A DNA stretch of 64,000 bases, taken from Globodera rostochiensis. Taxonomy: Eukaryota; Nematoda; Chromadorea; Rhabditida; Heteroderidae. Location: assembly GCA_018350325.1 (NCBI GenBank), contig JAEVLN010000023.1:1260894-1324893 (forward strand). Direction: 5' to 3'. Every line of letters starts with the position of its first letter. Position 1 is the first letter of the stretch. The notes below the pieces were generated by a model. That model saw only the letters and a list, made by a program, of their open reading frames with translations. It made no database searches and was not told where the DNA came from. Position numbers and translations under genes: made by a program. Positions 11,801 through 53,170 of this stretch are shown piece by piece.

Positions 11801-12152
11801 TCTAATTCATTAAAATAAGCTTTTTTCCCAGTTGTTTTTCGTAGTTTTCTTGAAATTCTGAGACTCAAATGGGAATTTTGTGAAGTTTATGTGTAATTCC
11901 TAATAATTATTTCACAAGGGAGACCAACAATTCTAATTCATTAAAATAAGCTTTTTTCCCAGTTGTTTTTCGTAGTTTTCTTGAAATTCTGAGACTCAAA
12001 GTCCTCCGATGGTTTTTGCTTCTTAAAAAACATTTCGGGGGGAGGCAAGATAAAGAGCTTTTTGTAGAAAGTTATTTGCCTTGAGTTTTTATTTCCGAGA
12101 ATGTTCAATGAGAAATTTGGTCGAACGCTTTTAAATAATTTCCAACTCTTAC

Positions 12153-20825: not shown

Positions 20826-21933
20826 AGCAAATGAATCAAATGCGACTCGAAATGGCTGAAGCGGACACTTTGCACGGTCAAAACGACGAAATTGAGCCGA
20901 ACAATGACAAAGAATCCACGGCTGATCAACAGGAGGACGATCAATTGGAAGTGAGTTTATTTTTGATTGTGGAAATATTGCCTTTTTATTGTGATAGAAT
21001 TAGAATTGAAGGGAGAAGAGCCCGCAAAGATGGAGGAGTTTCAGAAACAACAGCAACACAACATTGACGAGTCCGCAAAGATGGAGGAGTTTCAGAAACA
21101 GCAGCCACAACATTGGCGAGTCCGCAAAAATGGAGCAACTGAACATGGACTATTTGAAAATTGATCAGAAAGTATTGCTGGAAAGACAACAACAAAAAAC
21201 AGATCAAAAAGCACTGAGTGCGCCGATTGATCAAGTGGGTTTAAACTTAAAAGGCAGTTTTGTTGGATAGCTGAATCGGGCATAAAAGAAAGCCCCCCGG
21301 GCCAAAAAGGAATCCCAAAATGTAACAGTACAGTACCGGTGACCAACTCTATTTTTAAGCATTATCCTTAAGGCAACGAGTCAACTGATGGAGAAGTACC
21401 AGAATCAACAGCAACAGAACACATTGACGCGTTGACTGAAGCACGAAAGGGAAATGGTGGGCAATTGTTGTTTAATTTAAATCGATTAAAATAGTAATAA
21501 TTAGGGCTCGGATTTATATGCACATGCATATTTTTTCCTGAACTGGGAACAGCCTAAAATGCACGAAAAACGTGTTTTCAACTTGTTTTGAGCTTCTAGA
21601 AGCATTTTCATGTTGTATATTTGCATATTTGTGCATATTTCGCTATTTATGTTCATATTTTGGCATTTTGCAAAAATTAGTGATCTTGGCATGAAATGGA
21701 AGTTTTGGGGTCACGAGGTCGAGGGATGTGACCACGCCACCGAAACTTTTTATAGACTGAAGGGGGGGGGGGGTAGAGAAATCGAATTTAATATTTGTTT
21801 TGCAGAGACTGACGGTTTGCTTGTCAATATTGCCGTCGATTTGTTTCCATGCGTTTGGTTGGGCATGCCTGGCAACAAAATTGAAGCGAATTTTGGTCCA
21901 AACTTCAAATTCAACATTGCCGACGAGATTTAG
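20826..21933 (+). pseudogene. Coiled-coil/SPRY gene relic missing most of the SPRY domain
   Basis: After TTTAAATTTCAG the first exon (ATG at 20831) reads MNQMRLEMAEADTLHGQNDE and ends QLE|GTGAGT near 20,950. A repeated KMEEFQKQQ coiled-coil exon starts near 21,005, with a duplicated KMEEFQKQQQ unit. Further pieces lie at about 21,374-21,480. A SPRY shard [14 protein letters not shown] is at about 21,693-21,735, and the usual last exon ([19 protein letters not shown] to NIADEI) ends at 21,933. The SPRY start exons and the GDVVGCG exon are absent; MITE-like AT-rich sequence (about 21,505-21,680) occupies that interval. Confidence 0.7.
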
Positions 21934-21999
21934 AAACTGAAAAATTAGCGGATTTGTAATTATACTGTTGAAGATTACGGTCATTTATTTTTTCATTGT

Positions 22000-28957: not shown

Positions 28958-30553
28958 TCATAATTTGTATCTGAAGTTTGGACCAAATTTTGCTCTAATT
29001 TCGTCGTCAGAGCCCCGCAACGAAACGCATGGAAACAAATCGACGGCAAAAGAGACAAATAAATTGGCGGTGTCTGCAAAAATAAATTAAATTTAAAAAC
29101 AAAATTACCCTTTTAATTTAATTCTTTCTCACCCAAACGCTGTCCATTTTTTGTGTAAATAATTTGGCGAGTTGCCAAATTGACGCCGCAGCCGATGACG
29201 TCGCCGACGCCAAACGAAGTCTTTCCAGCAATGTACGGACGTCCATAGGCGCAGTGGGAGCATCCCTCAACCGCGTGACCCCAAAAAGTGCCATAGCTTC
29301 CGTATCCGTAAGTGCCTTCGGGACCTCCAACACTTTTGTCCAATGGCATTCGTTTGGTCGCGAATCCAATGAAAACATCGCTAAATACAACTTTCTTCAA
29401 AGGAAAATGCTTTTAAAGCATTTTGAAGCTCAACTATTTATTTATTTATTTTATTTACCTGCTTTTCGCTAACACATTCACTTCGTAGTAGAAAATGCCA
29501 AAATATTCTTTTGGAATTGGCTCAACAGCGAGGACAGAATGCCACACTAAAAAGTAAGCGGAAAATAAACTCTTTACATTAACCTTTTAAACCAAAATCT
29601 TTACCCAAATTATCTCCATTCTTTTCAACAATCAATCGATCGGGCTCAGAGAGCGTCAGGTCCTTGGGGCATGCAGCGGAATCCCATCGATTTTGTGGGG
29701 TCAGGCCTAATGATTGTATTTATTTATACCTATATTTATTATTTTGAATTAAATTTTATTTTTCAAAACTGAAAGGAAAGCATTTAAACAACAATTTCTC
29801 TACCATTTCTCTTCAACGCGTCGATGTTCTGTTTCTGTTGTTTCTGACACTCCTCCAATTCGGCGACATCCTTTTCCCGTTGTCCTTTCATCTCGTCCAT
29901 TTGCTTCTTGTGAGCATTTGACAGTTTCTCGAGTTCCCCCTGATGCTTCAACGAAAGCTGATCAATGGAAACTGAAACGGTGAAATAAATGAATTATTTG
30001 GGAAAGAAAAAAATGATTAATGCAGCACACTATCAAAGGTAAAAAGGATTTTCCAAATTCAACCAAATTTACCCTTCAGTTTTTTTGCCAACTCGTCGGT
30101 CTGCTGCTGTTTGTTCTGACACTTCTCCAACTCGGCTCGGAGTGCCTTCTGAACAATTGACAAGAAAAAATGAAATGTTTTTGTTAGAAAATATATTCAC
30201 ACATTTTCGAACTCGAATTTTGCAAGACTTTTCCATTCCTCCATTTGTTCAAGCTGTTTGCCGACCAATTCTTTCGTGTTCTTCAATTCCTCTTTCGTCT
30301 GATGCAATTCGTCCTTTAACAAAACCCAAAATAAATCAAATCACGAAGCACTCACAATCTGTGCTTTTTGATCAGTTTTTTGTTGTTCAGCATTTGCCGT
30401 TTGCTTTTGCTCCAGTGCATTAAGTCGTTGAAGCAATGCTTTCTGATCACTTTGCATCAACAAAAACTGATCGACGGAAACGAGCTTCTGCTGGTCCTCA
30501 TTTAACCAGCCAATTTTCTCTTGCAATTTCTCGAATTCGGTCAAATTTGACAT
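28958..30553 (-). CDS. Coiled-coil SPRY-domain protein, apparently intact, 368 aa
   Basis: Exons (leftward): 30356-30553, 30203-30313, 30073-30148, 29804-29971, 29605-29706, 29459-29546, 29133-29380, 28958-29073. All borders are GT-AG and the lengths sum to 1,107 bases with matching phases. The protein starts [20 protein letters not shown]. Residues about 1-185 are heptad-rich ([41 protein letters not shown]), with no signal peptide. The SPRY domain covers about 186-368 ([72 protein letters not shown]). SPRY domains bind protein partners; in cyst nematodes related proteins are secreted or cytosolic RBP/SPRYSECs. The C-terminus is FGPNFRYKL instead of ...FNIADEI, about five residues short through a frame change. 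Function unknown. Confidence 0.85.
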
Positions 30554-34860: not shown

Positions 34861-36898
34861 GTTCCCCGAACTCATCTAATTCTTAGATTTGTATATGGCG
34901 GTCCCTTTGATCACCGTTCTCCCCCATTAGCTTCTATAATCCCTCAATGGCGGTCCCTTTGATCGCGGCTCTCGCCAATAGCTGCTATACGGAAGCTGTG
35001 TGAATTGTTTTTTGGTTTTTCAATTTTTTTTGTGCCTTTTTTTTGATCGGAAATTGGGGGCTTGCCAAGGAAATTTAGGCTTTTCTGATCGTTTTTTAAC
35101 ATTTTTATAACTCGAGACTGACTAAATTAAATGTGAAATTTTAGGGGAAGCTCAAATAGAAACTTTCTGATCATATTTATTTTTTCAGAATTTTAAACCA
35201 ATATATTTTTCGCCAATAAAATACTAGCCAACCAAAAGTGGTCGTTTTTCCTTAATTTTTCAAAAATAACAACCGATTCAAAAAGCCGCTTTAAATTTTC
35301 ATTTTTTATTTTTTATTGACGAATTACTTTGAACTTAATTTTTAACTTTTTAATGCCAAGAATTGATACGCGTTATTTTAACTTTTAATAAACTTTTAAC
35401 AAGTTAAAAGTGAGATTTGGTATAGGGCTCAGCAGAGGATGCTGCGCCATTTCGCCTCCAATAGAGCCGCTGGGATTGAGCAGTGATATCCCTCAAATGA
35501 TTAACCGAAAGTGAAAACGAATTTTTTAGGTTGGGACCGCCGGGGGCGCCGATGTTATTTATCTCTTATCATTTCATACAGGAACGGGTTGAGTAAAATG
35601 AAAAGTGACTCTAAAATGCAAACTTAGGCGCTGAATACAATACCACGTTTAAATCGGTTTATAAAGCCGCTTGTTGTGTAGCGCCCGAGGCGTGCAGGCC
35701 TCCGCAGAAAGTTGCAACAGAATTTGTGATTAAAAGGAATTGTTTGGGAGTTCGAATTTAAAAGCTTTACGCGCGTTTTGGAGCGGGATTAATTCACTTT
35801 AATGAATTTTGTCAATATTAAAAGTAATTTTGTATATGAACGAATGAACTAAGAGAGTACGGGATATTTGAAAGAAAAAACAATTTGTAATAATTATCTC
35901 ATTATTGTCTTTGCCTGCGAAGCAATTACTGCCCCCCCCCCTCAAAAAAAAGTAAATGACTAAATTTATTGTTAATTCGAGGAGAGTTCCAGTCAGTGTG
36001 CCGTGAACCCTACTCTCAACGGCATTTGCTTCTCATCTCAATTGTGTCCGGCGTCGACCGAAGCAACCAATTCCAAATGCCGGCTATGGAAACGGAGAAA
36101 ACATTTAATTTTAGGTTCATTCAAAAATTCGGGAAATTGAAAATTGTAAAAAGTGCCATTTTACGCCATATTTTGGTGCATTTTTTGGCTTTTGTTTGGA
36201 GCATATAAATCCGTTCCCTGTTAATTTACTCCAAAAATTTTAAATATTTTAATTATAATTTTACTTTGAAAGTGTTAAACTTCCGGAGGGGGGGGGGGGT
36301 AAAAGGAGCGCATTTTGTTATTGTTTAATTTTGCGAAATATTGGAGACATTTAATGCCGAAGGTCCGAAGTAGAGAGTCCGTTTCCCCCCTTTTTTCAGT
36401 CTATAAAAAAGTTTTAAAAGTTTGTTAACAATTTAAAAGTGCTCCGAAATGGCTGTTCTGCTGACGGCGAGTCGGTGGAGGTCAGTGGCTGGCAAAGTGC
36501 CAGCTTTGTGAGGGCCAAATATGCAACAAAAACGACGCGAAAATATTTTATTTCATTTAAATTTGAAAATGTTGCAAAAAGTTTGTTTTAATTTTAATTT
36601 AAAATTGCGCAGTTTCAACGGCTTTTTTTATTAGACGGTAAAAATGTTCTTAAATTTAAAAACTATTCCAAACATTCAGCGAGTCCGGCATGGAAAACGC
36701 GGAAAACGCGGCAACGCAAGAGTAAATAAAATTTTAATTTTTAAATAGCTGCAATTTTTTCAAATACTCAAAATTATTTTTATTGAAAATTATAATTAAA
36801 AATATTCGCAAGCAATATTTTTATTAAAAATTGTAATTTCAAATCATTTAAATATTTGCAAATATTCTATATAATTAATTTAAAATCATTTTAATTTA
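34861..36898. other. No gene recognised; contains a duplicated non-coding block
   Basis: 35,730-35,865 matches 25,955-26,095 (GTTCGAATTTAAAAG...TTTTACGCGCG, then AATGAACTAAGAGAGTAC). A homopolymer G run is at about 36,288. A frame at 35,969-36,208 has no recognisable motif. The last 400 bp are AT-rich. Confidence 0.4.
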
Positions 36899-37165
36899 CA
36901 TTCACGGCTTCAGTGCCATCTAAAGATCATTTGACAGAAAGGCAAGCGTGAATTGTTTGTGGAAATTGGCATTTTGACCAAAAAAATGTTACATTTGTCA
37001 GTTTCCAATTTGTCAACGGAATCCCATCGATTTTTTCGGGTTACATTCTGGGGCAACAGCTTCTTTCTAAATTAGTAAATGCTTTGGCCGACAATGAAAA
37101 ATAAATGATAAAACGACCGTAATCTTCAACAGTATAATCACAAATCCGCTAATTTTCAGTTTCTT

Positions 37166-40100
37166 CTAAATCTCATCGGCAATGTTGTATTTGAAGTTTG
37201 GACCAAAATTCGCTTCAATTTTGGTGCCAGGCATGTCCAACGTAACGCATGGAAACAAATTGTCGGCAGATTCGACAAGCAACCCGTCAGTGTCTGCAAA
37301 AATAAAATAAACATTAAAGTCGCCCCCCCCTTTATTAACCATACTAAATCAGTGTGTCCGTATGTTTGTCCTTTATTGAATGAAATTTTTTTTGACACGA
37401 AAACATTTTTTGATGGGAGGGAAAAATAAGAGAGCAAAAAAACGAAGAGAGAGAAGAAAGAGAGCGAGGGACATACTGTGTAGAGTTGTTATTGCTTTGT
37501 TAAAAACAAACAAGCAAAGACATTTTTTATACTTTATTAAACAACAATTTCAACACAATAATGGAAAATTTAACAAAAATTACGTAAAGAAGAATCCCGT
37601 TTTCCCGTTTGTGATAGAATTATTTTCAATAAAAGGGATTTATCTAAAAGTAATTATTTCTTAAAATCGAGTCAAGGGTCAGTGCAAGTAAGTGTTAAGG
37701 CAAGTCAAGAGTCTAGGCAACTCAAGAGTTAAGGCAAGTTAAGAGCCAAAGCAAGTCAAATCAAGGCTGTTGAGCCAAGGCAAGTCAAGAATTAAGGCAA
37801 GTCAAGGCAGTCGAGCCAAGGCAAGTCAAGAATTAAGGCAAGTCAAGGCAGTCGAGCCAAGGCAAGTCAAGGCAGTCAAGACTCTAGGCAAGTCAAATCA
37901 AGGCAAGAGTAAGAGTCAAAGCAAGTCGAGATTCATTCACGAGCCAGGTCAAGAGTCAAGGCAGTCGAGCCAATGCAAGTCAAGAGCCAAGTCAAGGCAG
38001 TCAAGAGTCTAGGCAAGTCAAGAGCCAAGGCAAGAGTAAGAGTCAAAGCAAGTCGAGATTAATTCACGAGCCAGGTCAAGAGACAAGGCAGTCAAGCCAA
38101 GGCGAGTCAAGGCAGTTGAGTCAAAGCAAGTCAAGAACCAAGGTAAGTCAAAGCAAGTCGAGATTCAACGAAAGCCAAGAGTCAAAACAAGAGTAGGGCA
38201 AAATCAAGGCAAGAGTAAAAGCCAAAGCAAGTAGATTCAATCACGAGTCAAGAAGAGTCAGAGCAAGAGTCAAGGCAAGTCAAGAGTTAAGCAAGTCAAG
38301 GCAAGTCAAGAATCGAAGCAAGTCAAGAGTCAGGGCAGAGTCAAGGCAAGTCAAAAGTCAAATCAAGAGTCAGAGCAAGAGTCAAGGCAAGTCATGAGTT
38401 AAATCAAGGCAAGAGTAAAAGTCAAAACAAGTTGAGATTCAATCACGAGTCAAGAGTCAAAGCAAGAGTCAAGGCAAGTCAAGGTTAGGCAAGACAAGGG
38501 AAGTCAAGAATCAAGGCAAGTCAAGAGTTAAGCAAGTCAAGAATCAAAGCAATCGAAATTCAACTCAAGTCAAGAGTCAGGGCAGAGTCAAAGGCAAGTC
38601 AAGAGTCAAAGCAAGTTGAAATTCAAGTCAAGAGTCAGGGCAAGCGTCAAAGCAAGTCAAGAGTCAAATCGAAACAGGAGTAAGAGTCAAAGCAATTAAA
38701 TTCAATCACGAGTCAAGTCAAGAGTCAGGGCAAGAGTCAAGTCAAGAATCAAGGCAAGTGAAGCGTCAGAGAAAAGTCAGCGCAAGAGTCAAGTCAAGAA
38801 TCAAGGCAAATCAAGAGTAAGTGAATCAAAAGTTAAAGAAGTCAAGAGCCAAGGCAAGTCAAAAATTCAACGCAAGTCAAGAGTCAGAGCAAGAGAAAGC
38901 AAGTCAAGAATCAAGGCAAGTCACGCGTCAGAAGAGTCAAGGCAAGTCAAGAAGCAAGGCAAGTGAAGAGTCAAGGCAAGTTGAAATTCAACGCAAGTCA
39001 AGAGTCATGGCAAGTCAAGACTCAAAGAAGTTAAGAGTCAAGGCAACAGAAAAAATTTAAACAAAAAAAAATAAAGACAATAAAGAGCGGTTGGGTGCCG
39101 CGAAGCGGCAGCCAAACGCTCGTCTACTATACTAAATCAGTGTGTCCGTCTGTATGTTTGTCCCGTTTTGAATGAAATTTTTTTTGACACGAAAATTTTT
39201 GGTGGTGGAAAAAGAGAGCCAAAAAACGAAGAGAGTAAGGAAAGAGAGCGAGGGACGACATATTGTGTTAGTTGTTTTTGCTTTGTTAAAAACAAACAAC
39301 TAAAGACATTTTTATTTTATTAAACAGCAATTTCAACACAATAATGGAAAATGTAACAAAAATCACGTCAAGAAGAATCCCGTTTTTCCCGTTTGTGATA
39401 GAATTATTTTCAAAAAAGGGATTTTATCTAAAAGTAATTATTTCTTAAAATCGAGTCAAGGGTCAGTGTAAGTCAAGAGTTAAGGCAAGTGTCAAGGAAG
39501 GTCAAAAGTGAAAACAAGAGAAAGAGTTAAAGCATAGTTGAGTTGAGAATTAATGCAAGGCAAGTCACGAATCAAAGCAAGTCGAGATTCAACAAATCAC
39601 GAGTCAAAGCAAGTCGAGATTCAAAACAAGTCGAGATTTAAGAGTCAACTCAAGAGTAAGCCAATTCAAGTAAGAGTCAGGGCAGCGTCAAGGCAAGTCG
39701 AGAGTCAAATCAAGAGTCCGGGCGCGTCAAGGCAAGTCAAGATTAAAAAGTCAAGTCAAGAGTAAGCCAAGGCAAGTAAAAGCAAGTCAAGAGTCAAATC
39801 AAGTCGAGATTCAAAATAAGTCGAGATTTAAGAGTCAAGTCAAGAGTAAGCCGATGCAAGTAAGAGTCAGGGCAGTGTCAAGGCAAGTCAAGAGTCAAAT
39901 CAAGAGTCAGGGCAGCGTCAAGGCAAGTCAAAAGCCAAATCAAGTCTTGACTCAAGAGTCAAATCAAGGCATGAGTCAGGGCAAAAATCAAGAGTCGACG
40001 CAAGTCAAGAGTCAACGCAAGTCGAGATTCAATGCAAGCTAAAAGTCGTCAAGCCAAGAGTCAATGCAAGTCAAAAGTGAAAACAAGAGAAAGAGTTGAA

Positions 40101-43100
40101 GCATAGTCGAGTTGAGAATCAATGCAAGGCAAGGCAAAGTAAGCAAGTCGAGATTAACACAAGTCACGAATCAAAGCAAGTCGAGATTCAACGCAAATCA
40201 CGAGTCAAAGCAAGTCGAGATTCAACGCAAATCACGAGTCAAAGCAAGTCGAGATTCAACGCAAGTAAAGGGCAGGGCAAGTCAAGAGTCAAATCAAGGC
40301 ATGAGTCAGGGCAAAAATCAAGAGTCAATGGAAGTCAAGAGACAAGGCAGGTCAAGAAGCAATGCAGTAAGTCGACGCAAGTCAAGAGTCAACGCAAGTC
40401 GAGATTTAATGAAAGCTAAGAGTCGTCAAGTCAAGATTCAATGCAAGTCAAAAGTGAAACAAGAGAAAGAGTTAAAGCATAGTTGAGTTGAGAATTAATG
40501 CAAGGCAAGTCAAGAGGCAAGTCGAGATTCAACGCAAGTAAAGAGTAAATCAAGAGTAAAGCCTAGAGCCAAGGAAAGTCAAAGCAAGACAAGAGTCAAA
40601 GTAGTCGAGATCAAGGGGAAAAGTTTTATACCAAAAGATGAAAGACAATGAAGAGCGGTTGGGTGCCGCGAAGGGGCAGCCAAGCGCTCGTTAACTATAC
40701 TAAACCAGTGTGTCCTCCAGTGTGTTTGTCCCGTTTTGAATGGATTTTTTATTCACACGAAAACTTTTTATGGGTGTGAAAAATAAGAGAGCAAAAAAAC
40801 GAAGAGAGTGAAGAAAGAGAGCGAGGGGCAGACTGTGTAGAGTTGTTATTGCTTTGTTAAAAACAAACAAGCAAAGACTTTTTTTACTTTAGTAAACAGT
40901 AATTTCAACATAATAATTGAAAATTTAACAAAAATCACATCAAGAAGAATCCCGTTTCCCATTTGTGACAGGATTTTTTTCAAAGAAAAAGGATTATCTA
41001 CTTACTTAAAAATAATTATTTCTTAAAAGCGAGTCAAGGGTCAGTGTAAGTCAAGAGTTAAGGCAAGTGTCAAGGAAAGTCAAGAGTCAAATCAAGGCAA
41101 GAGTCAAAGTAAGTCGAAGTTTAAGAGTCAAGTCGAGAGTAAGCCGAGACAAGTAAGAGTCAGGGCAAAGTCAAGGCAAGTCAAGATTTAAGAGTCAAGT
41201 CAAGAGTAAGCCGAGACAAGTAAGAGTCAGGGCAGTGTCAAGGCAAGTCAAGAGTCAAATCAAGAGTCAGGGCAGCGTCAAGGCAAGTCAAGAGTCAGAT
41301 TAAGTCGAGATTCAAAACAAGTCGAGATTTAAGAGTCAAGTCAAGAGTAAGCCGAGGCAAGTAAGAGTCAGGGCAGCGTCAAGGCAAGTCAAGAGTCAAA
41401 TCAAGAGTCAGGGCAGCGTCAAGGCAAGTCAAGAGTCAAATCAATAGTAAGTCGGGTCACGTCAAGAGTCAGTGCAAAGTCAAGGCATGTAAGAGTCAAC
41501 AAGGCAAGAGTCGGGGCAAAAATCAAGAGTCAACGGAAGTAAAGAGCAAGGCAGGCGAAAAAGCAATGCAAGTCAAAAGTCGACGCAACTCAAGAGTTAA
41601 ATAGAGGCAAAGTCAAAGCAAGTCGAGATTTAACGCAAGCCGAGTCAAGACTCAAATCAAAAGTCAGGGCAAGTGACAAGGCAAGCCAAAAGTCAAATCA
41701 AGGCAAGAGTCGGAGCAAAAATCAAGAGTCAAGGCAGGCGAAGAAGCAATGAAAGTCAAAAGGCGACGAAAGTCAAGAGTCAAGGCATTCAACGCAAGTC
41801 ACGAATCAAAGCAAGTCAAGATTCAGCGCAAATCACGAGTCAAAGCAAGTCGAGATTCAACGCAAGTAAAAAGGCAAGGCAAGTCAAGAGTCAAATCAAG
41901 GCATGAGTCAGGGCAAAAATCAAGAGTCAATGGAAGTCAAGAGACAAGGCAGGTCAAGAAGCAATGCAGTAAGTCGAGGCAAGTCAAGAGTCAACGCAAG
42001 TCGAGATTTAATGCAAGCTAAGAGTCGTCAAGTCAAGACTCAATGCAAGTCAAAAGTGAAAACAAGAGAAAGAGTTAAAGCATAGTTGAGTTGAGAATTA
42101 ATGCAAGGCAAGTCAAGAGGCAAGTCGAGATTCAACGCAAGTAAAGAGTAAATCAAGAGTAAAGCCTAGAGCCAAGGAAAGTCAAAGTAGTCGAGATCAA
42201 GGGGAATTTTGTCTGGACATTTGCGACATAAGTCAAAATTGACGCTTTTTTATGACTAAAATTTGTATTCTTTCTCACCCAAGCGCTGTTCGTTTAGCGC
42301 GTAAATAATTTGGCCATTTTTAACGCCGCAGCCGACGACGTCGTCTTTCTCAAACGAAGGCTTTCCGTCTATGAAAGGACGCCCATTGACGTGGGTACAT
42401 CCCTCAACTTCGTGACCCAAAAATGTGCCATCGCTTCCGTATCCGTAAGTGCCTTCGTGATATCCAACAAATTCGTCCAATGGCATTCGTTCGGTTGCAA
42501 GTCCAATGGAAATAAAGCTAAATATAATATTTTAAAGCACAACAAATGTTTTATAAATAAATTACCTTATTTTCTCTATGATTTTCACTTCGAAATAGGA
42601 AATGCCGAAAGGATTTTCCAGAAGTCGATTTTCAGCCAACACAGAGCTCCACCCCTCTGAAAATTGAGTTAATTCAACAATTTAAATAAACCCTTTTAAT
42701 CAAAATGTTTACCCGAATTCTCTCCATTATGTTGGACAACCAATTGACCGGGCTCAGAGAGCGCGAGATTGTCGTGACAATCATCGGAATCCCACCGATT
42801 GATTAGCCCTAAGGAAATATAATTTTCATTTTTCTAAATATTAAAGCTAACTGAGGCCTAAAAGGCAGAATTTCCGAACTATGAACAAAAAATTTAGACC
42901 TAAATTACCAAGCTTCAGCAAGTAGCTGATGTTCAGCTGCTGTTCTTTCTGATACTTCTCCAGTATGTCATCAATTTCAACGAATTTGTTAGCATTTGAC
43001 AATTTCTGTTGCTCCAATTCGGCGAATTTGTTGGCATTCGACTGTTTTTGCTCCTCCAATTCGGCAACGACAATCGCTTAAAAAATCAAATAAAATTTGT

Positions 43101-44533
43101 TAACCATTTTAATACATTTACCATTTTGCGCATTCAATCGATGGACCGTATAAATGACAAAAATAAGCAGAACAATTGCGCACGCGATGCCAGCGATTCG
43201 ATAAGGATCTGTGTAACGTCCAAAAGTTGGCTAACGAATTAAAGAAAGTTTAAATGATTCCAATTGTTTTGTTAGAGATTGACGGAACTGGCATTCCCCC
43301 CGGGCTTTTTTTGGGAGAGTTCCCCCGCCGAGCCTTAGTAGCGCTGTTCGTAAGTCTTGGGGTCTCGGGTTTCGGGACGGTATATAATTCTTATTTTTCA
43401 AAATTTAATGCTAAAATGATGCCTAAAAGACGGGGGAATTTCCAATTTTAGAAGCTAAATTTTCTTTTTACCATTTTCCAATTCGGCGACGACCATCGCT
43501 TGGACAGACTTCAGAGATTCAGCCATTTTGAGTCGCATTTCATTCATTTTCTCTGAAATTTACCCAAACAAATGGTATAAATCGACAAAAGAAATTCAAT
43601 CGAAAATAAAATTGTTAAATTTCGAAGTCGATAAAAAGATATTTTAGGGGTATTCGAGGGCTTAGATTCTGAATCTAACATTTATTCGACCAATTCCGAA
43701 CCCCGGACCCGAAGACCCGAATTAGAACAATTTTCAAAAAATCAAAATTTTCCAAAAAACAATTGGCCTTTTTTTAACAACATTACAACGAAAAGGCAAG
43801 TAATGATCGAATTCAGCTTTTTAAACAATTTAGAGGCCAAAATTGTTTTTTGGAAAAATTTGATTTTTCGAAAATTGTTCTAATTCGGGTCTTCGGGTCC
43901 GGGGTTCGGAATTAGTCGAATAAATGTTAGATTCAGAATCTACGCCCTCGAATACCCCTAGAAAAATCTTTTTATCGACCGCTAATCGTCGACATGGGCA
44001 ACCCCGGCCTCCCCGACTTTCCCGCCCCGAAGGGTCGGGGACCAACCCTACCTGAAAGACCGGGGGAATTTCCAATTTTTGAAACAAAATTTTCTTTTTT
44101 ACCAATTCCCAATTCGGCGACGACCATCGCTTTGACAGACTTCAGAGATTCAGCCATTTTTCCTTTTTGTTTATCAGTCAATTGAAGGGCCGTATAAATG
44201 ATGAAAATAAGCAGAGCAATTGTCCCCGCGATTCGAAAAAGATCTAACAAATAAAGTCCAAAAGGTTGGCTTACGATATTTTAAGGGAAGTTTTCTTACC
44301 GTATAGCCCCCATTGATCCGCCCGAGCTAAAATTGTGACCAAATTCTTAATCTTGCCAATTTTGCCACCAATTTCCACTTTTCAAAATAAAATTATTACT
44401 ATTTTAATACATTTACCATCTTTTTTTATTGAAAGCATTTAAATTAAACAACAATTGCCCCACCATTTCCCTTTCGTGCTTCAGGCAACGCGTCAATGTT
44501 CTGTTGCTGTTGGTTCTGAAACTCCTCCGCCAT
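37166..44533 (-). CDS. Membrane-anchored coiled-coil SPRY protein, left palindrome copy, 392 aa
   Basis: Exons leftward: 44464-44533, 44300-44377, 44103-44243, 43472-43552, 43122-43208, 42909-43076, 42713-42808, 42566-42656, 42279-42517, 37166-37293. They sum to 1,179 bases with every intron in phase 1. Architecture: a short start ([11 protein letters not shown]), a first hydrophobic segment ([20 protein letters not shown]), a linker with KMAESLKSV, a second hydrophobic segment ([20 protein letters not shown]), coiled coil ([16 protein letters not shown]), then SPRY ([10 protein letters not shown] to NIADEI). The final intron is about 4,985 bp because of a tandem-array insertion. SPRY exon 3 reads [38 protein letters not shown], unlike the right copy. 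The start is the first in-frame ATG of the 5' exon; an upstream exon cannot be excluded. Expression is unproven. Confidence 0.75.
37331..42204 (+). repeat. 4.9-kb tandem array of a Helitron/HINE-like unit with a purine-rich minisatellite
   Basis: Three head-to-tail units. Each has a conserved roughly 330-bp head (TACTAAATCAGTGTGTCCG, AGAGAGCGAGGGACA, TTGTTAAAAACAAACAAGC) at about 37,343, 39,121 and 40,691. Each continues in 1.1-1.4 kb of imperfect GTCAAGAGTCAAGGCAA minisatellite; units 1 and 2 end in a strong hairpin (39085-39121 and 40653-40689; core TGCCGC-GAA-GCGGCA). The layout (conserved head, internal minisatellite, 3' stem-loop, head-to-tail copies) resembles Helitron-derived HINE/DINE-1 elements, but no CTRR end or target A|T could be fixed. 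Lys/Ser/Gln-rich open frames inside are artefacts of the repeat. Confidence 0.7.
43622..43985. repeat. Fold-back element in an intron, left-arm copy
   Basis: Mirror of 49,293-49,648. Arms of about 146 bp start TCGATAAAAAGAT..TAGGGG and meet at AATTGTTTTTTGGAAAA, with a roughly 60-bp loop containing TTCGTTGTAATGTTGTTAAA in reverse. It lies in the intron 43,553-44,102. Confidence 0.75.
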
Positions 44534-44944
44534 CTTTGCACTCAGTTCGCCCTTCAGTTGACTCGTTCCCTTAAATTATTTAATTTAAATTAAGGATAAT
44601 GCTAACATCGGTACAATGTTCTGACACTCAATTTATGTAGTTTAAAAAAACCTTGAAAAAAGAGACGTAATAAAGGCAAAAAAGTAATAACATCGAAACA
44701 GAAACTGGGTCAGACACGAAAAAAAGCAACCACAACTCAATTCATTTACGTAGGTAAAATTAAAAGAGACCAAAATTTTGAAATTCCTAGATTTGGATTT
44801 CAGGGAGGCGCCTGGACTAATTTCCTGGTCCGAAGTCCAGGAAACCCCATTTGGGAAGGGGGGGGGGGACAGATAGTATCGTTCTTTTGGGTTTTGTAGA
44901 GAATTTTTGATCAATTTGGTGTTAGCATCAGAAGTTATGCTTAC

Positions 44945-45051
44945 CAGGGTGACCACCTGTCAAACCCAAAAATCAGGAATTAAGCTGAAAAATCAGGAAA
45001 ACACCCTAAAATCAGGAAAAACCTGACAAATCAGGTACTCTGGTCACCCTG
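44945..45051. mobile_element. 107-bp hAT-type MITE, left-arm copy
   Basis: Ends CAGGGTGACCA / TGGTCACCCTG; the interior has repeated AAATCAGGAAAA words. The 8-bp ATGCTTAC is repeated at 44937-44944 and 45052-45059. Confidence 0.9.
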
Positions 45052-45673
45052 ATGCTTACATGAATTTTTCGGAATTTTGAAATGCCTATAAAAAGGTTAA
45101 GGCCTCTGGAAAAAAGTGGCTTTACTTTTGGGGAACACCTTATTTCTGATTAAAAAAACACAAAAAATTTTCAGAGGATTTTGCACAATTGGTGATGAAA
45201 ATATGGAAATTAGAGTAGAATCTTCCTATTTATGTCGCTAACAGCATCAGATGAGGGTAATTAAAATATAAAATGATTATGAGCCCTGGAGTTTACTAAA
45301 TGAATGAATGGCGTTATCAGACGGGTGGGGGGGGGATGCAATTACAATTTTTATGGAAAGAAATGGTGCAAAATGATTATGATCCCTGCTGGAATTAGTC
45401 ATCATCCAATAATACTAACTCATACTAATTCAGTCGCGAACGTACAAATATTTTTTTAAAAGATAAGAGCATCATAAAAAAAGAGTCAACGAATTTTTCA
45501 CTCTGCATTGCACCGCCGTTTTTATTAGTAAACAATATTTCATCACAATAATGTAAAATTGACAAAAAAAGCGCCTCAAAAAAAGTCAAGCCAGTCAAGA
45601 ATTGAAAATAAAAAGAAACTACTAATCAAAACTCCAAATTTCTTCCAGGCTCCATGATGTAGTGGCTAACAAA

Positions 45674-45756
45674 TTCGAGAGTCTCGGTCTCGAGTCTCGG
45701 TGTCATTTCTCGGTCTCGACTCTCGAGTCTCGGTAAATTTCAAGTCTCGAGCATCC
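45674..45756. mobile_element. 83-bp CTCGAGA-type MITE, left-arm copy
   Basis: TCGAGAGTCTCGGTCTCG-type ends; flanked by CTAACAAA at 45666-45673 and 45757-45764. Removing it joins TAGTGGCTAACAAATAAGCG, a tRNA-like stretch. Confidence 0.8.
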
Positions 45757-46073
45757 CTAACAAATAAGCGTTGCATTGGGGAATGTGAGTGTTCAAATCC
45801 GGAATGAAAAAAAATATAGTTTAAAAGGTCGACGAGTAATTTTTCGGTTCGCCCGAGACCGAGAGCCCATTCATTTTGGCCGATGCAAAGTTTGCCCTTT
45901 TGGACAATTTTTTCCATTCGGCCACCCCCGAAAATTTGTTTAATATCCGAAATTTGGTTCAATTTATAAGTTTAATTATTTAAACTATAAATTTACTAAA
46001 TAAAATGCGTTTGGTGTTCTTCCATTGTGTGTGTGCATTTTTGTATTAATAATTCGACAAAATTTGCTGTCGA

Positions 46074-46466
46074 TCAATTCATCTTGCAACATTCGGCTTT
46101 ATCCTCCTCCAAGAAGAGATCACTTCTGATCAAAAAATCCCGGTCAATAATGCTAAAAGCAACTGGCGGTTTGTTTTGGGACCAGCGAACAGATAATTGC
46201 CAGCGGCCAAAAATGTCGCCGTCCACGTCAATGCCCGGGGGGAGAGGGGCAGGTGAAAAGGAGACAAATTCGAATAAATAAAATGCCATGTTCATAAGCG
46301 AAAGTGCCAAAACGCTTTTGAGTCCCGAATTTTCTTTAGGAATAAATTTATTTTTCACTAATTTCAAATTAAAATAAAAATTTTCCATTTTAATACGCCT
46401 TTTAAGGCTTCTTCTGGGTCGATTTGTGTCAGCTCTGCCGAAATAAATGCGTTGTCGAGCAAACAC
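46074..46466 (-). CDS. Hypothetical frame near the palindrome centre, left copy
   Basis: Mirror of 46,859-47,251; about 130 residues are shared (FARQRIYFGRADTNRPRR, DVDGDIFGRWQLSVRWSQNK, SIIDRDFLIRSDLFLEEDKA). The frame is open further upstream into the spacer, which is probably chance. Broken relatives lie at 27.3 kb and 32.05 kb. Confidence 0.4.
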   Translation of the reverse strand: MFARQRIYFGRADTNRPRRSLKRRIKMENFYFNLKLVKNKFIPKENSGLKSVLALSLMNMAFYLFEFVSFSPAPLPPGIDVDGDIFGRWQLSVRWSQNKPPVAFSIIDRDFLIRSDLFLEEDKAECCKMN

Positions 46467-46477
46467 CGAGAGGAAAA

Positions 46478-46847
46478 CTTTTGAATTCGCGTTTTTTATT
46501 TTGTTTTTTGAGAAAAAAACCATAGAGTGGCACTTTTGCTTTGCAAAATTCGTAATTATTGACAATTCCTTAACAAGTTTCGATAAAATCTTCAAATATT
46601 CCCCGGCGGCGCTTATCGGCGGCAGTTCATCGATTGCAAAAATATTTTTTATTTTAACAATTTTGTAATGAAAAAACAATTATGCCGATGGTATTTAAAA
46701 TTGGAAAATTTCATTAATCACTTTATTATAATTACTTTTTGATCAGCATCAATTTTGAGCTCGACAAAATAATGAGAGTTTAAAACTTGGCGATTAACGG
46801 CGCTGTTCTGTGGTGCCCATTTTTGATCTGAACGCCAAATGGCACAA
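46478..46847. repeat. 370-bp unique spacer of the palindrome
   Basis: The two arms meet here. The spacer is not itself palindromic. Its 46,705-46,785 part is the reverse complement of 32,400-32,480 (ATTTTGTCGAGCTCAAAATT, AAAAAGTAATTATAATAAAG). It also contains a CCCCGGCGGCGCTTATCGG piece of the GC hairpin repeat near 46,602. Confidence 0.85.
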
Positions 46848-46858
46848 TTTTCCTCTCG

Positions 46859-47251
46859 GTGTTTGCTCGACAACGCATTTATTTCGGCAGAGCTGACACA
46901 AATCGACCCAGAAGAAGCCTTAAAAGGCGTATTAAAATGGAAAATTTTTATTTTAATTTGAAATTAGTGAAAAATAAATTTATTCCTAAAGAAAATTCGG
47001 GACTCAAAAGCGTTTTGGCACTTTCGCTTATGAACATGGCATTTTATTTATTCGAATTTGTCTCCTTTTCACCTGCCCCTCTCCCCCCGGGCATTGACGT
47101 GGACGGCGACATTTTTGGCCGCTGGCAATTATCTGTTCGCTGGTCCCAAAACAAACCGCCAGTTGCTTTTAGCATTATTGACCGGGATTTTTTGATCAGA
47201 AGTGATCTCTTCTTGGAGGAGGATAAAGCCGAATGTTGCAAGATGAATTGA
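46859..47251 (+). CDS. Hypothetical 130-aa frame near the palindrome centre, right copy
   Basis: Single open frame with MENFYFNLKLVKNKFIPKEN, a hydrophobic stretch (LKSVLALSLMNMAFYLFEFV) and a polar tail (GRWQLSVRWSQNKPPVAFSI). The same segment occurs in degraded form at 27,240-27,400 and 32,030-32,100, so it belongs to a small repeated family. I do not recognise it. The start codon is uncertain. Confidence 0.45.
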   Translation: MFARQRIYFGRADTNRPRRSLKRRIKMENFYFNLKLVKNKFIPKENSGLKSVLALSLMNMAFYLFEFVSFSPAPLPPGIDVDGDIFGRWQLSVRWSQNKPPVAFSIIDRDFLIRSDLFLEEDKAECCKMN

Positions 47252-47362
47252 TCGACAGCAAATTTTGTCGAATTATTAATACAAAAATGCACACACACAA
47301 TGGAAGAACACCAAACGCATTTTATTTAGTAAATTTATAGTTTAAATAATTAAACTTATAAA

Positions 47363-47659
47363 TTGAACCAAATTTCGGATATTAAACAAATTTTCGGGGG
47401 TGGCCGAATGGAAAAAATTGTCCAAAAGGGCAAACTTTGCATCGGCCAAAATGAATGGGCTCTCGGTCTCGGGCGAACCGAAAAATTACTCGTCGACCTT
47501 TTAAACTATATTTTTTTTCATTCCGGATTTGAACACTCACATTCCCCAATGCAACGCTTATTTGTTAGGGATGCTCGAGACTTGAAATTTACCGAGACTC
47601 GAGAGTCGAGACCGAGAAATGACACCGAGACTCGAGACCGAGACTCTCGAATTTGTTAG
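47363..47659 (+). CDS. Hypothetical 98-codon frame (mirrored at 45,666-45,962), partly MITE-derived
   Basis: Reads MNQISDIKQIFGGGRMEKIV and QKGKLCIGQNEWALGLG. The last 30 codons are the MITE at 47,569. The FGGGR..KIVQKGKLC motif also appears at 31,350-31,856, which supports an old coding origin, but nothing identifies a function. Confidence 0.3.
   Translation: MNQISDIKQIFGGGRMEKIVQKGKLCIGQNEWALGLGRTEKLLVDLLNYIFFHSGFEHSHSPMQRLFVRDARDLKFTETRESRPRNDTETRDRDSRIC
47569..47651. mobile_element. 83-bp CTCGAGA-type MITE, right-arm copy
   Basis: Mirror of 45674-45756 with TTTGTTAG flanks at 47561-47568 and 47652-47659. Confidence 0.8.
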
Positions 47660-48276
47660 CCACTACATCATGGAGCCTGGAAGAAATTTGGAGTTTTGAT
47701 TAGTAGTTTCTTTTTATTTTCAATTCTTGACTGGCTTGACTTTTTTTGAGGCGCTTTTTTTGTCAATTTTACATTATTGTGATGAAATATTGTTTACTAA
47801 TAAAAACGGCGGTGCAATGCAGAGTGAAAAATTCGTTGACTCTTTTTTTATGATGCTCTTATCTTTTAAAAAAATATTTGTACGTTCGCGACTGAATTAG
47901 TATGAGTTAGTATTATTGGATGATGACTAATTCCAGCAGGGATCATAATCATTTTGCACCATTTCTTTCCATAAAAATTGTAATTGCATCCCCCCCCCAC
48001 CCGTCTGATAACGCCATTCATTCATTTAGTAAACTCCAGGGCTCATAATCATTTTATATTTTAATTACCCTCATCTGATGCTGTTAGCGACATAAATAGG
48101 AAGATTCTACTCTAATTTCCATATTTTCATCACCAATTGTGCAAAATCCTCTGAAAATTTTTTGTGTTTTTTTAATCGAAAAATAAGATGTTCCCCAAAA
48201 GTATAAAGCCACTTTTTTCCAGAGGCCTTAACCTTTTTATAGGCATTTCAAAATTCCGAAAAATTCATGTAAGCAT

Positions 48277-48384
48277 CAGGGTGACCAGAGTACCTGATTT
48301 GTCAGGTTTTTCCTGATTTTAGGGTGTTTTCCTGATTTTTCAGCTTCAATTCCTGATTTTTGGGTTTGACAGGTGGTCACCCTG
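48277..48384. mobile_element. 108-bp hAT-type MITE, right-arm copy
   Basis: Mirror image of 44945-45051, flanked by GTAAGCAT at 48269-48276 and 48385-48392. Its presence in both arms dates the insertion before arm duplication or homogenisation. Confidence 0.9.
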
Positions 48385-48738
48385 GTAAGCATAACTTTTG
48401 ATGCTAACACCAAATTGATCAAAAATTCTCTACAAAACCCAAAAGAACGTACTATCTGTCCCCCCCCACCCACCCAAATGGGGTTTCCTGGACTTTCGGT
48501 TGGGTCTCTTTTAATTTTACCTACGTAAATGAATTGAGTTGTGGTTGCCTTTTTTCGTGTCTGACCCAGTTTCTGTTTCGATGTTATTACTTTTTTGCCT
48601 TTATTACGTCTCTTTTTTCAAGGTTTTTTTAAACTACATAAATTGAGTGTCAGAACATTGTACCTGTTAGCATTATCCTTAATTTAAATTAAATAATTAA
48701 AGGGAACGAGTCAACTGAAGGGCGAACTGAGTGCAAAG

Positions 48739-51251
48739 ATGGCGGAGGAGTTTCAGAACCAACAGCAACAGAACATTGACGCGTTGCCTGAAGCACGAAA
48801 GGGAAATGGTGGGGCAATTGTTGTTTAATTTAAATGCTTTCAATAAAAAAAGATGGTAAATGTATTAAAATAGTAATAATTTTATTTTGAAAAGTGGAAA
48901 TTGGTGGCAAAATTGGCAAGATTAAGAATTTGGTTACAATTTTAGCTCGGGCGGATCAATGGGGGCTATACGGTAGGAAAACTTTCCTTAAAATATCGTA
49001 AGCCAACCTTTTGGACTTTATTTGTTAGATCTTTTTCGAATCGCGGGGACAATTGCTCTGCTTATTTTCATCATTTATACGGCCCTTCAATTGACTGATA
49101 AACAAAAAGGAAAAATGGCTGAATCTCTGAAGTCTGTCAAAGCGATGGTCGTCGCCGAATTGGGAATTGGTAAAAAAGAAAATTTTGTTTCAAAAATTGG
49201 AAATTCCCCCGGTCTTTCAGGTAGGGTTGGTCCCCGACCCTTCGGGGCGGGAAAGTCGGGGAGGCCGGGGTTGCCCATGTCGACGATTAGCGGTCGATAA
49301 AAAGATTTTTCTAGGGGTATTCGAGGGCGTAGATTCTGAATCTAACATTTATTCGACTAATTCCGAACCCCGGACCCGAAGACCCGAATTAGAACAATTT
49401 TCGAAAAATCAAATTTTTCCAAAAAACAATTTTGGCCTCTAAATTGTTTAAAAAGCTGAATTCGATCATTACTTGCCTTTTCGTTGTAATGTTGTTAAAA
49501 AAAGGCCAAAATTGTTTTTTGGAAAATTTTGATTTTTTGAAAATTGTTCTAATTCGGGTCTTCGGGTCCGGGGTTCGGAATTGGTCGAATAAATGTTAGA
49601 TTCAGAATCTAAGCCCTCGAATACCCCTAAAATATCTTTTTATCGACTTCGAAATTTAACAATTTTATTTTCGATTGAATTTCTTTTGTCGATTTATACC
49701 ATTTGTTTGGGTAAATTTCAGAGAAAATGAATGAAATGCGACTCAAAATGGCTGAATCTCTGAAGTCTGTCCAAGCGATGGTCGTCGCCGAATTGGAAAA
49801 TGGTAAAAAGAAAATTTAGCTTCTAAAATTCCCCCGTCTTTTAGGCATCATTTTAGCATTAAATTTTGAAAAATAAGAATTATATACCGTCCCGAAACCC
49901 GAGACCCCAAGACTTACGAACAGCGCTACTAAGGCTCGGCGGGGGAACTCTCCCAAAAAAAGCCCAGGGGGAATGCCAGTTCCGTCAATCTCTAACAAAA
50001 CAATTGGAATCATTTAAACTTTCTTTAATTCGTTAGCCAACTTTTGGACGTTACACAGATCCTTATCGAATCGCTGGCATCGCGTGCGCAATTGTTCTGC
50101 TTATTTTTGTCATTTATACGGTCCATCGATTGAATGCGCAAAATGGTAAATGTATTAAAATGGTTAACAAATTTTATTTGATTTTTTAAGCGATTGTCGT
50201 TGCCGAATTGGAGGAGCAAAAACAGTCGAATGCCAACAAATTCGCCGAATTGGAGCAACAGAAATTGTCAAATGCTAACAAATTCGTTGAAATTGATGAC
50301 ATACTGGAGAAGTATCAGAAAGAACAGCAGCTGAACATCAGCTACTTGCTGAAGCTTGGTAATTTAGGTCTTTCGGAAATTCTGCCTTTTAGGCCTCAGT
50401 TAGCTTTAATATTTAGAAAAATGAAAATTATATTTCCTTAGGGCTAATCAATCGGTGGGATTCCGATGATTGTCACGACAATCTCGCGCTCTCTGAGCCC
50501 GGTCAATTGGTTGTCCAACATAATGGAGAGAATTCGGGTAAACATTTTGATTAAAAGGGTTTATTTAATTTGTTGAATTAACTCAATTTTCAGAGGGGTG
50601 GAGCTCTGTGTTGGCTGAAAATCGACTTCCGGCAAATCCTTTCGGCATTTTTTATTTCGAAGTGACAATCTTAGAGAAAACAGGGTAATTTATAAATATT
50701 AACATTTGTTGTGCTTTAAAATATTATATTTAGCGCTATTTTGATTGGACTTGCGAAAGTACAAATGCGCACGGACGAATATGTTGGACGTGACGAAGGC
50801 ACTTTCGGATACGGAAGCGATGGCACATTTTGGGGTCACGAGGTCGAGGGATGTTCCAACGACGACAATGGACGTCCTTTCATCGATGGAAAGCTTCCGT
50901 TTGAGGATGGCGACGTCGTCGGCTGCGGCGTCAAAAATGGCCAAATTATTTACGCGCTAAACGAACAGCGCTTGGGTGAGAAAGAATACAAATTTTAGGC
51001 ATAAAAAAGCGTCAATTTTGACTTATGGCGCAAATTTCCAGACAAAATTGTTCAAAAAATGCAAGAATAAGGGGCAAGACTTAAAAGGGGGGGGCCGACT
51101 TTAATGTTTATTTATTTTTGCAGACACTGACGGTTTGCTTGTCGAATCTGCCGACGATTTGTTTCCATGCGTTTCGTTGGGCATGCCTGGCACCAAAATT
51201 GAAGCAAATTTTGGTCCAAACTTCAAATTCAACATTGCCGATGAGATTTAG
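48739..51251 (+). CDS. Membrane-anchored coiled-coil SPRY protein, right palindrome copy, 393 aa
   Basis: Exons: 48739-48808, 48895-48972, 49029-49169, 49722-49802, 50059-50145, 50191-50358, 50442-50537, 50594-50684, 50734-50975, 51124-51251. They sum to 1,182 bases; all nine introns are phase 1, and all acceptors are AG. The domains are the same as in the left copy: two copies of a hydrophobic (R-I-A-G...LLIF.IYT) plus M-V-V-A-E-L-E cassette, a coiled coil, then a complete SPRY ([114 protein letters not shown]). The hydrophobic segment may serve as signal anchor or signal peptide, which would route the SPRY outside the cytosol; this is inference. The last intron is 148 bp. Confidence 0.8.
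49293..49648. repeat. Fold-back element in an intron, right-arm copy
   Basis: Inverted arms 49,293-49,438 and 49,502-49,648 share GGGGTATTCGAGGGC, TAGATTCTGAATCTAA and CCGAACCCCGGACCCGAAG, separated by a 63-bp loop. It sits in intron 49,170-49,721 beside a short GC-rich inverted unit (49,218-49,280, GGGTTGGTCCCCGACC) like the one at 22,318. No open frame. Confidence 0.8.
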
Positions 51252-51535
51252 AAGAAACTGAAAATTAGCGGATTTGTGATTATACTGTTGAAGATTACGG
51301 TCGTTTTATCATTTATTTTTCTTTGTCGGCCAAAGCATTTACTAATTTAGAAAGAAGCTGTTGCCCCAGAATGTAACCCGAAAAAATCGATGGGATTCCG
51401 TTGACAAATTGGGAACTGACAAATGAAAAAGATTTTTTAACATTTTTTTTTGATCAAAATGCCAATTTCCACAAACAATTCACGCTTGCATTCTGTCAAA
51501 TGGATCTTCAGATGATGCACTGAAGCCGTGAATGA

Positions 51536-53170
51536 AAAGTTTAATCCGGCACAATATGTAGCAGATTATCCGTTAATAGAATAGCTTTCAAGCCTAAGCT
51601 TAAACCTAGGTCTAAGCTAGCTTAGGTTTAGGCCTGAGCCTAACCCAAATTTGCCTCGTGCGGCAGGGAGGCAAAATGCCCTATATATTTCCACTCTTGC
51701 CATAATTTTGCCATATTTTAGAACTTAGTGAAAATTTCGTATTTTTGAGGGAAAAATGAGAATTCCCGAAAAAAGTGTCTATGATTCGTACAATTTGAAG
51801 TTTTTGGTTGCAATTTCTTAACAAATTGAGTCAAAAATTCAAAATTTTCTCGCCGACGCCTATCGGCACCACCGACCCCCCCCCCCAGAAGTGAAGCAAA
51901 ATTTTAAAAAAATCATTGGTTTTTTTTTGTAAATTCCTCAAGAAAATATTTTTGACCCCTCGGTGCCATAAAAATGCCATATTTTGGAGCCGGTTGCCAT
52001 ATTTAACCGCAGTTGCGTGATCGGACTTGAGGATTGATCGAGAATCTCGAAAAAATCTCGTCGAGATTTACCGAGATTCCGATCGAGAATTTCGATCTAA
52101 TTTTAAGACAGTGTAACTGCAGCGGAACTGGCTGAGACCGCCTCGTTGGAGAACTGTTTGGCTCGGGTGATGTCATTGCGGGAAGAGTTTGTATAGCAGC
52201 AAAGTGTGCCACGGCACCAACAATGGGCGGAGCATTCAAAAGGCGCACTGAACAGCAGCCAATCTCCGCAGCCGTTGATTACTTCGGCCATTTCTTCGGA
52301 GTGCGTCTTTTTGTGCCGTACACCAAAATGGTAATACAATTAGCCCGGACAGGATTTACCAGGACTCCTGCTGATCCGGAATCCTCGTCTAACAAATAAG
52401 CACCAGGCATGGACGGCAAAAAAGGAAAAAAAAGCGAATTAATTCATTTGTACAAATCATAAAAGCCAAAACCATTTAAACAAATTAACAGACAACTCTA
52501 ATTTTACAGACATGCTTTTAGCATACCCAAGCCAAATTTTTGAGTTGTTCACTCATTTTGGGGTAAATTCAATTTTTTTAAATTCTTTACTCTCTAACTC
52601 GAAAAAATCGTATAAAACCAAATAAATTTTGTTATAAATAAAAGAGTATTTTGTTTCTGAGCTCTGTACAAAAAATCAGGAAAATCTGCACATTTAAAAA
52701 AATTTCCCACATACGAAGTGCGCCCAACTCGATTTTCAGTGTAAATTTTTTTTACTGATGACAGAATGCCAAAGATTTATTATTACCAACAATTCGTTCA
52801 AACATTAATTCGCTTTTTTTGCCTTTTTTCCGTCCATGCAGGATTAGCAGGCTTTATTAGAGCCCGGACAGGATCGAAGTCCGGACAGGATTTACCAAGG
52901 CTTCTGATCCGGAATCTCCTGGTATTTTCGTCGAAGTCGAAGCACCAGGATCAGAATATCCTGAAAAACCAGGATTTTGATTCGGATAAATCCTGATCCT
53001 GGTCATTTCTAAAATCCTGATCCTGATCCGGGGTTTTTCAAAAAGCCGGGCTTTAAACACAATACAGGCAAAATGAGTGCCAAAACAAATGCTTTCGAAT
53101 TTGATGAGTTGCCATTTGCTTTTGACGGCGTTTTTTTGAGCCGTAATTTTGAGACCTCCCAAATTTCTTT
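51536..53170. other. No gene recognised; repeats present
   Basis: Contains a GC hairpin repeat (about 51,852-51,880), a short inverted CTAAGCT/AGCTTAG stretch (51,590-51,650), TCTCGAGA-type words (52,035-52,100) and a CCGGACAGGATTTACCA-type repeat at 52,345-52,400 and 52,857-53,050 (ends TAGAGCCCGG / CCGGGCTTTA, no clear target duplication). A plus-strand stretch 52,130-52,330 (GELFGSGDVIAGRVCIAAKC in one frame) could be an exon but is not recognised. Confidence 0.4.

Follow-up and report, generated by a model that had tools for sequence, protein, structure and literature searches.

An inverted pair of SPRY genes in Globodera rostochiensis, near-identical towards its centre and diverged in its SPRY exons

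Two divergently transcribed SPRY genes, both open, lie in an inverted duplication at 36,895-51,538 of a stretch of the Globodera rostochiensis genome, and they raise the question of how two copies came to agree in their 5' coding ends and to differ in their SPRY ends. The window, meaning the whole 64-kb stretch analysed here, is the final 64 kb of contig C16 (which ends at 1,324,893) in an assembly of 92.6 Mb and 80 contigs. The initial annotation had read the locus as a palindrome, and arm-to-arm alignment recovered all of its elements in the assembly: the arms, the spacer and the genes on opposite strands. The parts are listed below (window coordinates, unstranded unless a strand is given).

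46478..46847: spacer, 370 bp, unique, the palindrome centre; the arms stop at 46,477 and 46,848
46,848-51,538: arm B overall
46848..50629: arm B inner segment, putatively homogenised, 14 of 3,775 aligned sites substituted relative to arm A
50630..50910, + strand: arm B divergent block, SPRY exons 2-3, 43 of 277 aligned sites differing from arm A
50734..50800, + strand: most diverged stretch, the 5' part of SPRY exon 3, A-B identity 0.746
50911..51538: arm B outer end, from the remainder of SPRY exon 3 through the last intron and last exon into the 3' flank, with 17 differences in 573 aligned sites
46,477 down to 36,895: arm A overall, with an insert at 37,331-42,204
42621..46477: arm A counterpart of the inner segment, by alignment
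42344..42620, - strand: arm A counterpart of the divergent block, by alignment and segmentation
42205..42343: arm A outer end on the centre side of the insert, by alignment
37331..42204: arm A insert, 4,874 bp, in the last intron of the arm A gene; arm B is without it
36895..37330: arm A outer end past the insert, containing the last exon

At the position of the insert, arm B has 38 different bases (51050-51087), and the last exon lies beyond this point in both arms. Most of the insert consists of a degenerate tandem repeat whose unit is close to 17 bp, and several long open frames that the insert yields are probably spurious. Between the inner segments one indel of 55 bp and several small ones were found, and the flanks outside the arms have only scattered short repeats in common. 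Elsewhere in the window, 4574-12000 is occupied by a large satellite array whose unit measures 131 bp, with AATAGGTA-type repeats interspersed, and other SPRY exon copies are present at 21792-21986 and 28961-29692; in 200 aligned columns, the last exon at 21.8 kb shows 91.5% identity to its arm B counterpart.

Both genes point their 5' ends to the palindrome centre, and their exons were placed as follows.

48739..51251, + strand: arm B gene in its minimal reading, nine coding exons, 367 codons
48739-48808, 49029-49169, 49722-49802, 50059-50145, 50191-50358, + strand: arm B exons 1-5
50442-50537 (SPRY 1), 50594-50684 (SPRY 2), 50734-50975 (SPRY 3), 51124-51251 (last), + strand: arm B exons 6-9
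37166..44533, - strand: arm A gene, same exons, mapped splice signals conserved
44533-44464, 44243-44103, 43552-43472, 43208-43122, 43076-42909, - strand: arm A exons 1-5
42808-42713, 42656-42566, 42517-42279, 37293-37166, - strand: arm A exons 6-9

The arm A gene is one codon shorter, the difference falling in SPRY exon 3. Ten exons and 392 and 393 codons had been proposed initially; the frames are open as stated, and the exact structure was not reproduced in our minimal reading of nine exons and 367 codons, although the larger count is compatible with two annotated G. rostochiensis proteins, P0001 of B type (400 aa) and P0002 of A type (412 aa). Each of these corresponds to one arm, SPRY exons 2-3 being of the B version in P0001 and of the A version in P0002, and the models of both proteins add a 9-codon cassette exon and extra 5' exon sequence (for arm B, the P0001 model places the cassette at 48945 and the additional sequence at 48703 and 47287). 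The best protein relatives, annotated in the same species, show 98% identity at 97% coverage of the query and 89% at 94%. The donor site of the cassette exon (48945-48976) is among the few inner-arm differences, arm A having GTAAGA where arm B has GTAGGA, and given this difference its splicing could differ between the copies. Two further statements about the reading frames held as well: the first six exons are alike in both arms (100% identical in the minimal reading), and identity is complete in the mirrored frames, which measure 77, 84, 92 and 98 codons.

The N-terminal half of the minimal protein contains two membrane-type hydrophobic segments (hydropathy windows of 2.16 at residue 25 and 2.52 at residue 102), encoded in arm B by the exons 49029-49169 and 50059-50145, respectively, and is predicted with modest confidence to form long helices. 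The C-terminal part gave a confidently predicted SPRY fold, with the model weak outside it (mean pLDDT 72, pTM 0.48 overall), and its nearest solved structure is the cyst-nematode SPRY protein 8bv0, chain B of which was the top match both by sequence (2.6e-21) and by fold (1.8e-19, 48% identity). In Pfam searches with single exons, SPRY scored 21-22 bits (E about 2e-4 to 3e-4), a partial domain under the cut-off of 26.3, and relatives of the arm genes carry PF00622; neither the ORF 46850-47248 nor any exon piece besides SPRY exon 3 reached the cut-off of a Pfam family. A repeat of about 380 bp (49293-49671), lying in the intron whose flanking exons end at 49169 and begin at 49722, has dozens of genome matches at roughly 66-82%, many in both orientations; it is an imperfect inverted repeat, since it matches its own reverse complement at 85-86%.

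Over the whole arms, A and B differ by 74 substitutions, which are distributed very unevenly. A three-segment description was preferred (BIC 619, against 767 for one segment and 624 for four and five), with divergence of 0.4% in the inner arm, 15.5% in the SPRY block and about 3% in the outer end. On the centre side, substitutions number 6/1,644 in the inner non-coding part, 6/1,197 in the region of exons 1-2 and 2/893 in that of exons 3-6; they rise to 8/93 in SPRY exon 2 with its edges, 3/46 in the intron and 33/240 in SPRY exon 3, and further out amount to 3/73 and 1/36 in the last intron, 6/127 in the last exon and 6/271 in the 3' flank. The first 1,331 aligned sites from the centre carry no substitution at all, and even within the inner segment the contrast of 0/1,330 with 14/2,404 sites is significant (p = 0.003). 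As to the SPRY exons themselves, the differences noted initially were borne out: 7 of 31 codons differ in exon 2, counting the codon split over the 3' splice site, and exon 3 shows 18 replacement codons, a one-codon indel and 7 silent codons, its first full codon, outside that count, being a further replacement (A in B, F in A).

The initial annotation had also suggested that homogenisation was unequal along the arms, and this is supported by the comparison of outer with inner non-coding sites (13/426, including 3/46 from the intron inside the block, versus 14/3,734; p = 6e-7), as well as by a G. pallida relative that suggests an old split (see below). The pattern is not purely a SPRY island, because the last exon and the 3' flank, at about 3%, also exceed the inner arm, and with three levels of divergence the arms resemble a mosaic of at least three ages. 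The real oddity is the identity of everything centre-ward, not the difference in the SPRY exons.

The G. pallida protein P0011 is one of three proteins with the marks YALNEQR and LKLG among 120 listed of 377 found. A and B agree at 100% in the second membrane-type exon, the coiled-coil-like exon and the first SPRY exon, and there P0011 matches them at 81, 80 and 69%. In SPRY exon 2 the A-P0011 identity is 86% and that of A-B 83%, and in the variable part of SPRY exon 3 A and B are 69% identical to each other, versus 62 and 57% to P0011. Compared at the protein level, and with this one relative as the basis for the age of the duplication, the pattern suggests what would be expected of an old duplication with recently refreshed inner arms. 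The orthology of P0011 depends on the two marks, since the G. rostochiensis paralogue P0010 is slightly nearer to A and B in two of the three exons (82 vs 80% and 73 vs 69%). SPRY exon 3 of P0011 has a mosaic look: a central block of 31 residues is identical at 27/31 positions to the paralogue P0020 (genome copy C23_3036, matched by eye), the next best of the 120 listed proteins reaching 21/31, and the end matches A and B. Short SPRY segments have therefore probably been exchanged between paralogues in this lineage.

Such exchange bears on the first alternative, namely that the palindrome is young, with arms only about 0.4% apart, and that the SPRY end of one arm was overwritten by a paralogue since lost or absent from the assembly. 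We consider this rather unlikely. It would account for a sharply bounded block of 281 bp that is more diverged than either side, and for the first part of SPRY exon 3, in which A and B are 75% identical and B ranks just 37th of 42 for A; the block in P0011 likewise indicates that exchange seems to happen. Replacement by a donor paralogue, one of the two readings put forward initially, nevertheless fails for the block as a whole at the sensitivity used. Queries of about 500 bp over the block returned the other arm as the top genome match of each arm (89%), and the next match was C67:2168440 (80 and 79%), so a whole-block donor was ruled out among the 40 best candidates scored per search. Moreover, a B-specific 32-mer had no second copy in the genome at up to 3 mismatches, the arms are mutually closest among 43 aligned sequences for SPRY exon 2 and for the whole of exon 3, and a single event leaves the 3% divergence of the last exon and 3' flank unexplained unless the tract reached that far. 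For the first 130 bp of SPRY exon 3, a short and recent donor was rejected as well, the best non-arm matches being 86-87% and coming from C67 for both arms. What survives of the donor idea is the short tract: given the odd first third of SPRY exon 3 and the exchange-like block in P0011, short donor tracts are possible there.

The distribution of derived states was examined with C67 as the outgroup. Of the 41 sites that differ, C67 has the A base at 16, the B base at 15 and neither at 10 (hand count), so the derived changes are spread evenly over the arms. In a set of 41 paralogue sequences placed in the correct orientation, nine states of B and eight of A are missing or almost missing, and both counts fit two long-diverged lineages. 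Four adjacent B-only bases lie within the most diverged stretch, at 50769-50772, where the A state is kept in 40-41 of 41 paralogues; they alter a conserved motif and resemble a single multi-base event. In the max-descent test, A as the child of B and another paralogue reached the floor of 2,000 shuffles for the eight paralogues shown, and with B as the child the smallest p was 0.05. The test is not decisive, because B-only changes at sites where A keeps the family state mimic the signal; the floor result for A also fits ectopic patches. A segregation of private sites within SPRY exon 3, B-only early and A-only late (p = 0.0097), was set aside because p becomes 0.06 if the four adjacent B bases are counted as one event.

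The second alternative is that the duplication is recent and that positive selection then rapidly changed the SPRY binding face in both copies. We regard it as quite improbable, although it has some attraction: replacement codons and the codon indel outnumber silent codons in SPRY exon 3, 9/9 B-only sites (four of them adjacent) fall in replacement codons, and positive selection on SPRY loops is published for secreted relatives (PMC5071358). The differences had been described as mostly non-synonymous, which is true of the counts and not of the rates, dS (0.19) in SPRY exon 3 being no lower than dN (0.13). For SPRY exons 2 and 3 together, 29/257 replacement and 10/73 silent sites differ (p = 0.54), and the silent sites exceed the outer-arm non-coding divergence (p = 6e-4). 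Selection at the protein level would leave silent divergence unraised, yet the silent sites have diverged. The A-B dN/dS of 0.73 in SPRY exon 3 is also typical of the family, the medians against 37 paralogues being 0.69 for A and 1.09 for B (39/43 sequences were used, four being dropped for stops, short length or a missing motif), and the enrichment of differences in predicted loops (21/82 positions) over predicted strands (9/59) is not significant (p = 0.15). An adaptive diversification particular to this pair, as the initial annotation had it, is thus unsupported; family-typical dN/dS together with silent divergence means that the copies differ as ordinary members of a fast-evolving family.

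That family is very large, with at least 150 scored matches to PF00622 in the assembly. Three more inverted SPRY pairs, chosen for near-equal scores or identities on opposite strands, were checked.

C67 pair: arms of 4,498 bp as seen, cut by the fetched stretch, 100.000% identical, spacer near 490 bp
C19 pair: arms of 926 bp, 99.8% identical
C6 pair: arms of about 0.8 kb, 95.5% identical, some 11 kb apart

The C67 palindrome is either very young or an assembly foldback, and since its SPRY exons are identical a difference at the SPRY end is not a rule. The weakest alternative for the present locus, an assembly artefact in the form of a foldback read or of two haplotypes joined head to head near the contig end, draws on the position of the window at the end of C16 and on the perfect identity of the C67 arms, as a foldback would give, and is highly improbable in view of the 74 substitutions, the 55-bp indel and the 4.9-kb replacement that separate the arms, of outer flanks sharing just scattered short repeats, of both protein types being annotated (though possibly from the same assembly) and of the fact that no third near-identical copy was returned across 92.6 Mb.

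The reading we prefer, at a probability of roughly 0.58, is an older inverted duplication whose inner part was refreshed by arm-to-arm conversion and whose SPRY end escaped or was patched by short ectopic exchange. One SPRY gene would have been duplicated in inverted orientation, giving a palindrome of divergent copies with their 5' ends to the centre. To judge from the divergence profile, arm-to-arm gene conversion would then have acted most strongly near the centre, where it would preserve near-identity in the upstream region, in the N-terminal exons (membrane-type and coiled-coil-like) and in the first SPRY exon. The outer end, SPRY exons 2-3 and beyond, would have been homogenised less recently and would consequently show the older, family-typical SPRY divergence at silent and replacement sites alike. 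The 4.9-kb heterology in the adjoining intron may help to halt conversion. Two proteins with a common N-terminal half and distinct SPRY heads would be expected as products, and the heads might differ in binding.

An edge that simply escaped homogenisation, the plain alternative mentioned in the initial annotation, is the best single component of this explanation. A simple centre-to-edge gradient nevertheless fails to explain the value of about 3% in the last exon and 3' flank, as SPRY exons 2-3 would have to be older or more foreign than both neighbouring sides. Either an earlier conversion that also refreshed the outermost part, or other paralogues that patched short stretches of SPRY exon 3, would suffice for the lower outer divergence.

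Taken further, small SPRY palindromes might serve as a constant-plus-variable device, in which conversion would keep two divergent genes uniform in their regulatory DNA and N-terminal anchor and the distal SPRY exons would escape, gathering variation from mutation and paralogue patches. If this were true, each palindrome would give a pair of receptors or adaptors built on one chassis and bearing distinct binding heads; we think it unlikely and offer it as speculation. The locus is in any case a small natural example of an apparent conversion boundary lying inside a coding domain, so that the two genes of one pair share their N-terminal half and differ in their SPRY heads. With three further inverted pairs at hand, a family-wide survey of arm profiles could test how the SPRY family expands and diversifies.

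The palindrome proteins are related to the SPRYSEC effectors of potato cyst nematodes in SPRY fold and sequence, 8bv0 being such a relative, and differ from them in their two membrane-type hydrophobic segments. There is also no clear signal peptide at the MAEEF start or in the P0001 model, both of which begin hydrophilic; P0002 uses a different, hydrophobic first exon. PMC5071358 and PMC4901422 give about 300 SPRY proteins for G. pallida, of which about one tenth or fewer are counted as secreted effectors by a signal peptide and the lack of transmembrane segments, with at least two DOG boxes within 500 bp upstream as a further filter (PMC4901422). In the 500 bp upstream, no DOG box was found before the MAEEF start in either arm and one before the 47287 start in arm B. 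Judged by sequence, the palindrome genes would fall outside the secreted-effector filter described in PMC4901422, and fit the much larger set of SPRY proteins that are left out of the secreted-effector count.

Among the literature matches listed, from a collection that lacks most subscription papers, no title or abstract opening deals with palindromes of SPRY genes in cyst nematodes. For the sex chromosomes of mammals (PMC8981503) and willow (PMC7023750), palindromes are described whose arms undergo gene conversion with each other. The present arms resemble them in being near-identical through presumed conversion, and differ in being of kilobase scale and uniform in the inner part alone. The closest parallel is found in Caenorhabditis, where long inverted repeats with divergent or convergent paralogue pairs are known and gene conversion is among the proposed mechanisms (Zhao et al. 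2007, PMC1803023); a further mark of that class is a structure kept between species while its sequences diverge. The C. briggsae pair CBG13231/CBG13232 is 100% identical over 297 nt and 59.6% identical overall (PMC1803023), and the G. rostochiensis pair is like it in having 5' coding ends that are alike and 3' coding ends that have diverged. Divergent paralogues, near-identical intergenic arms and a short spacer (370 bp here) are common to both systems, whereas the SPRY gene and the 4.9-kb intronic insert in one arm set the present case apart. The Globodera SPRY palindrome thus adds to a known class of inverted paralogue pairs.
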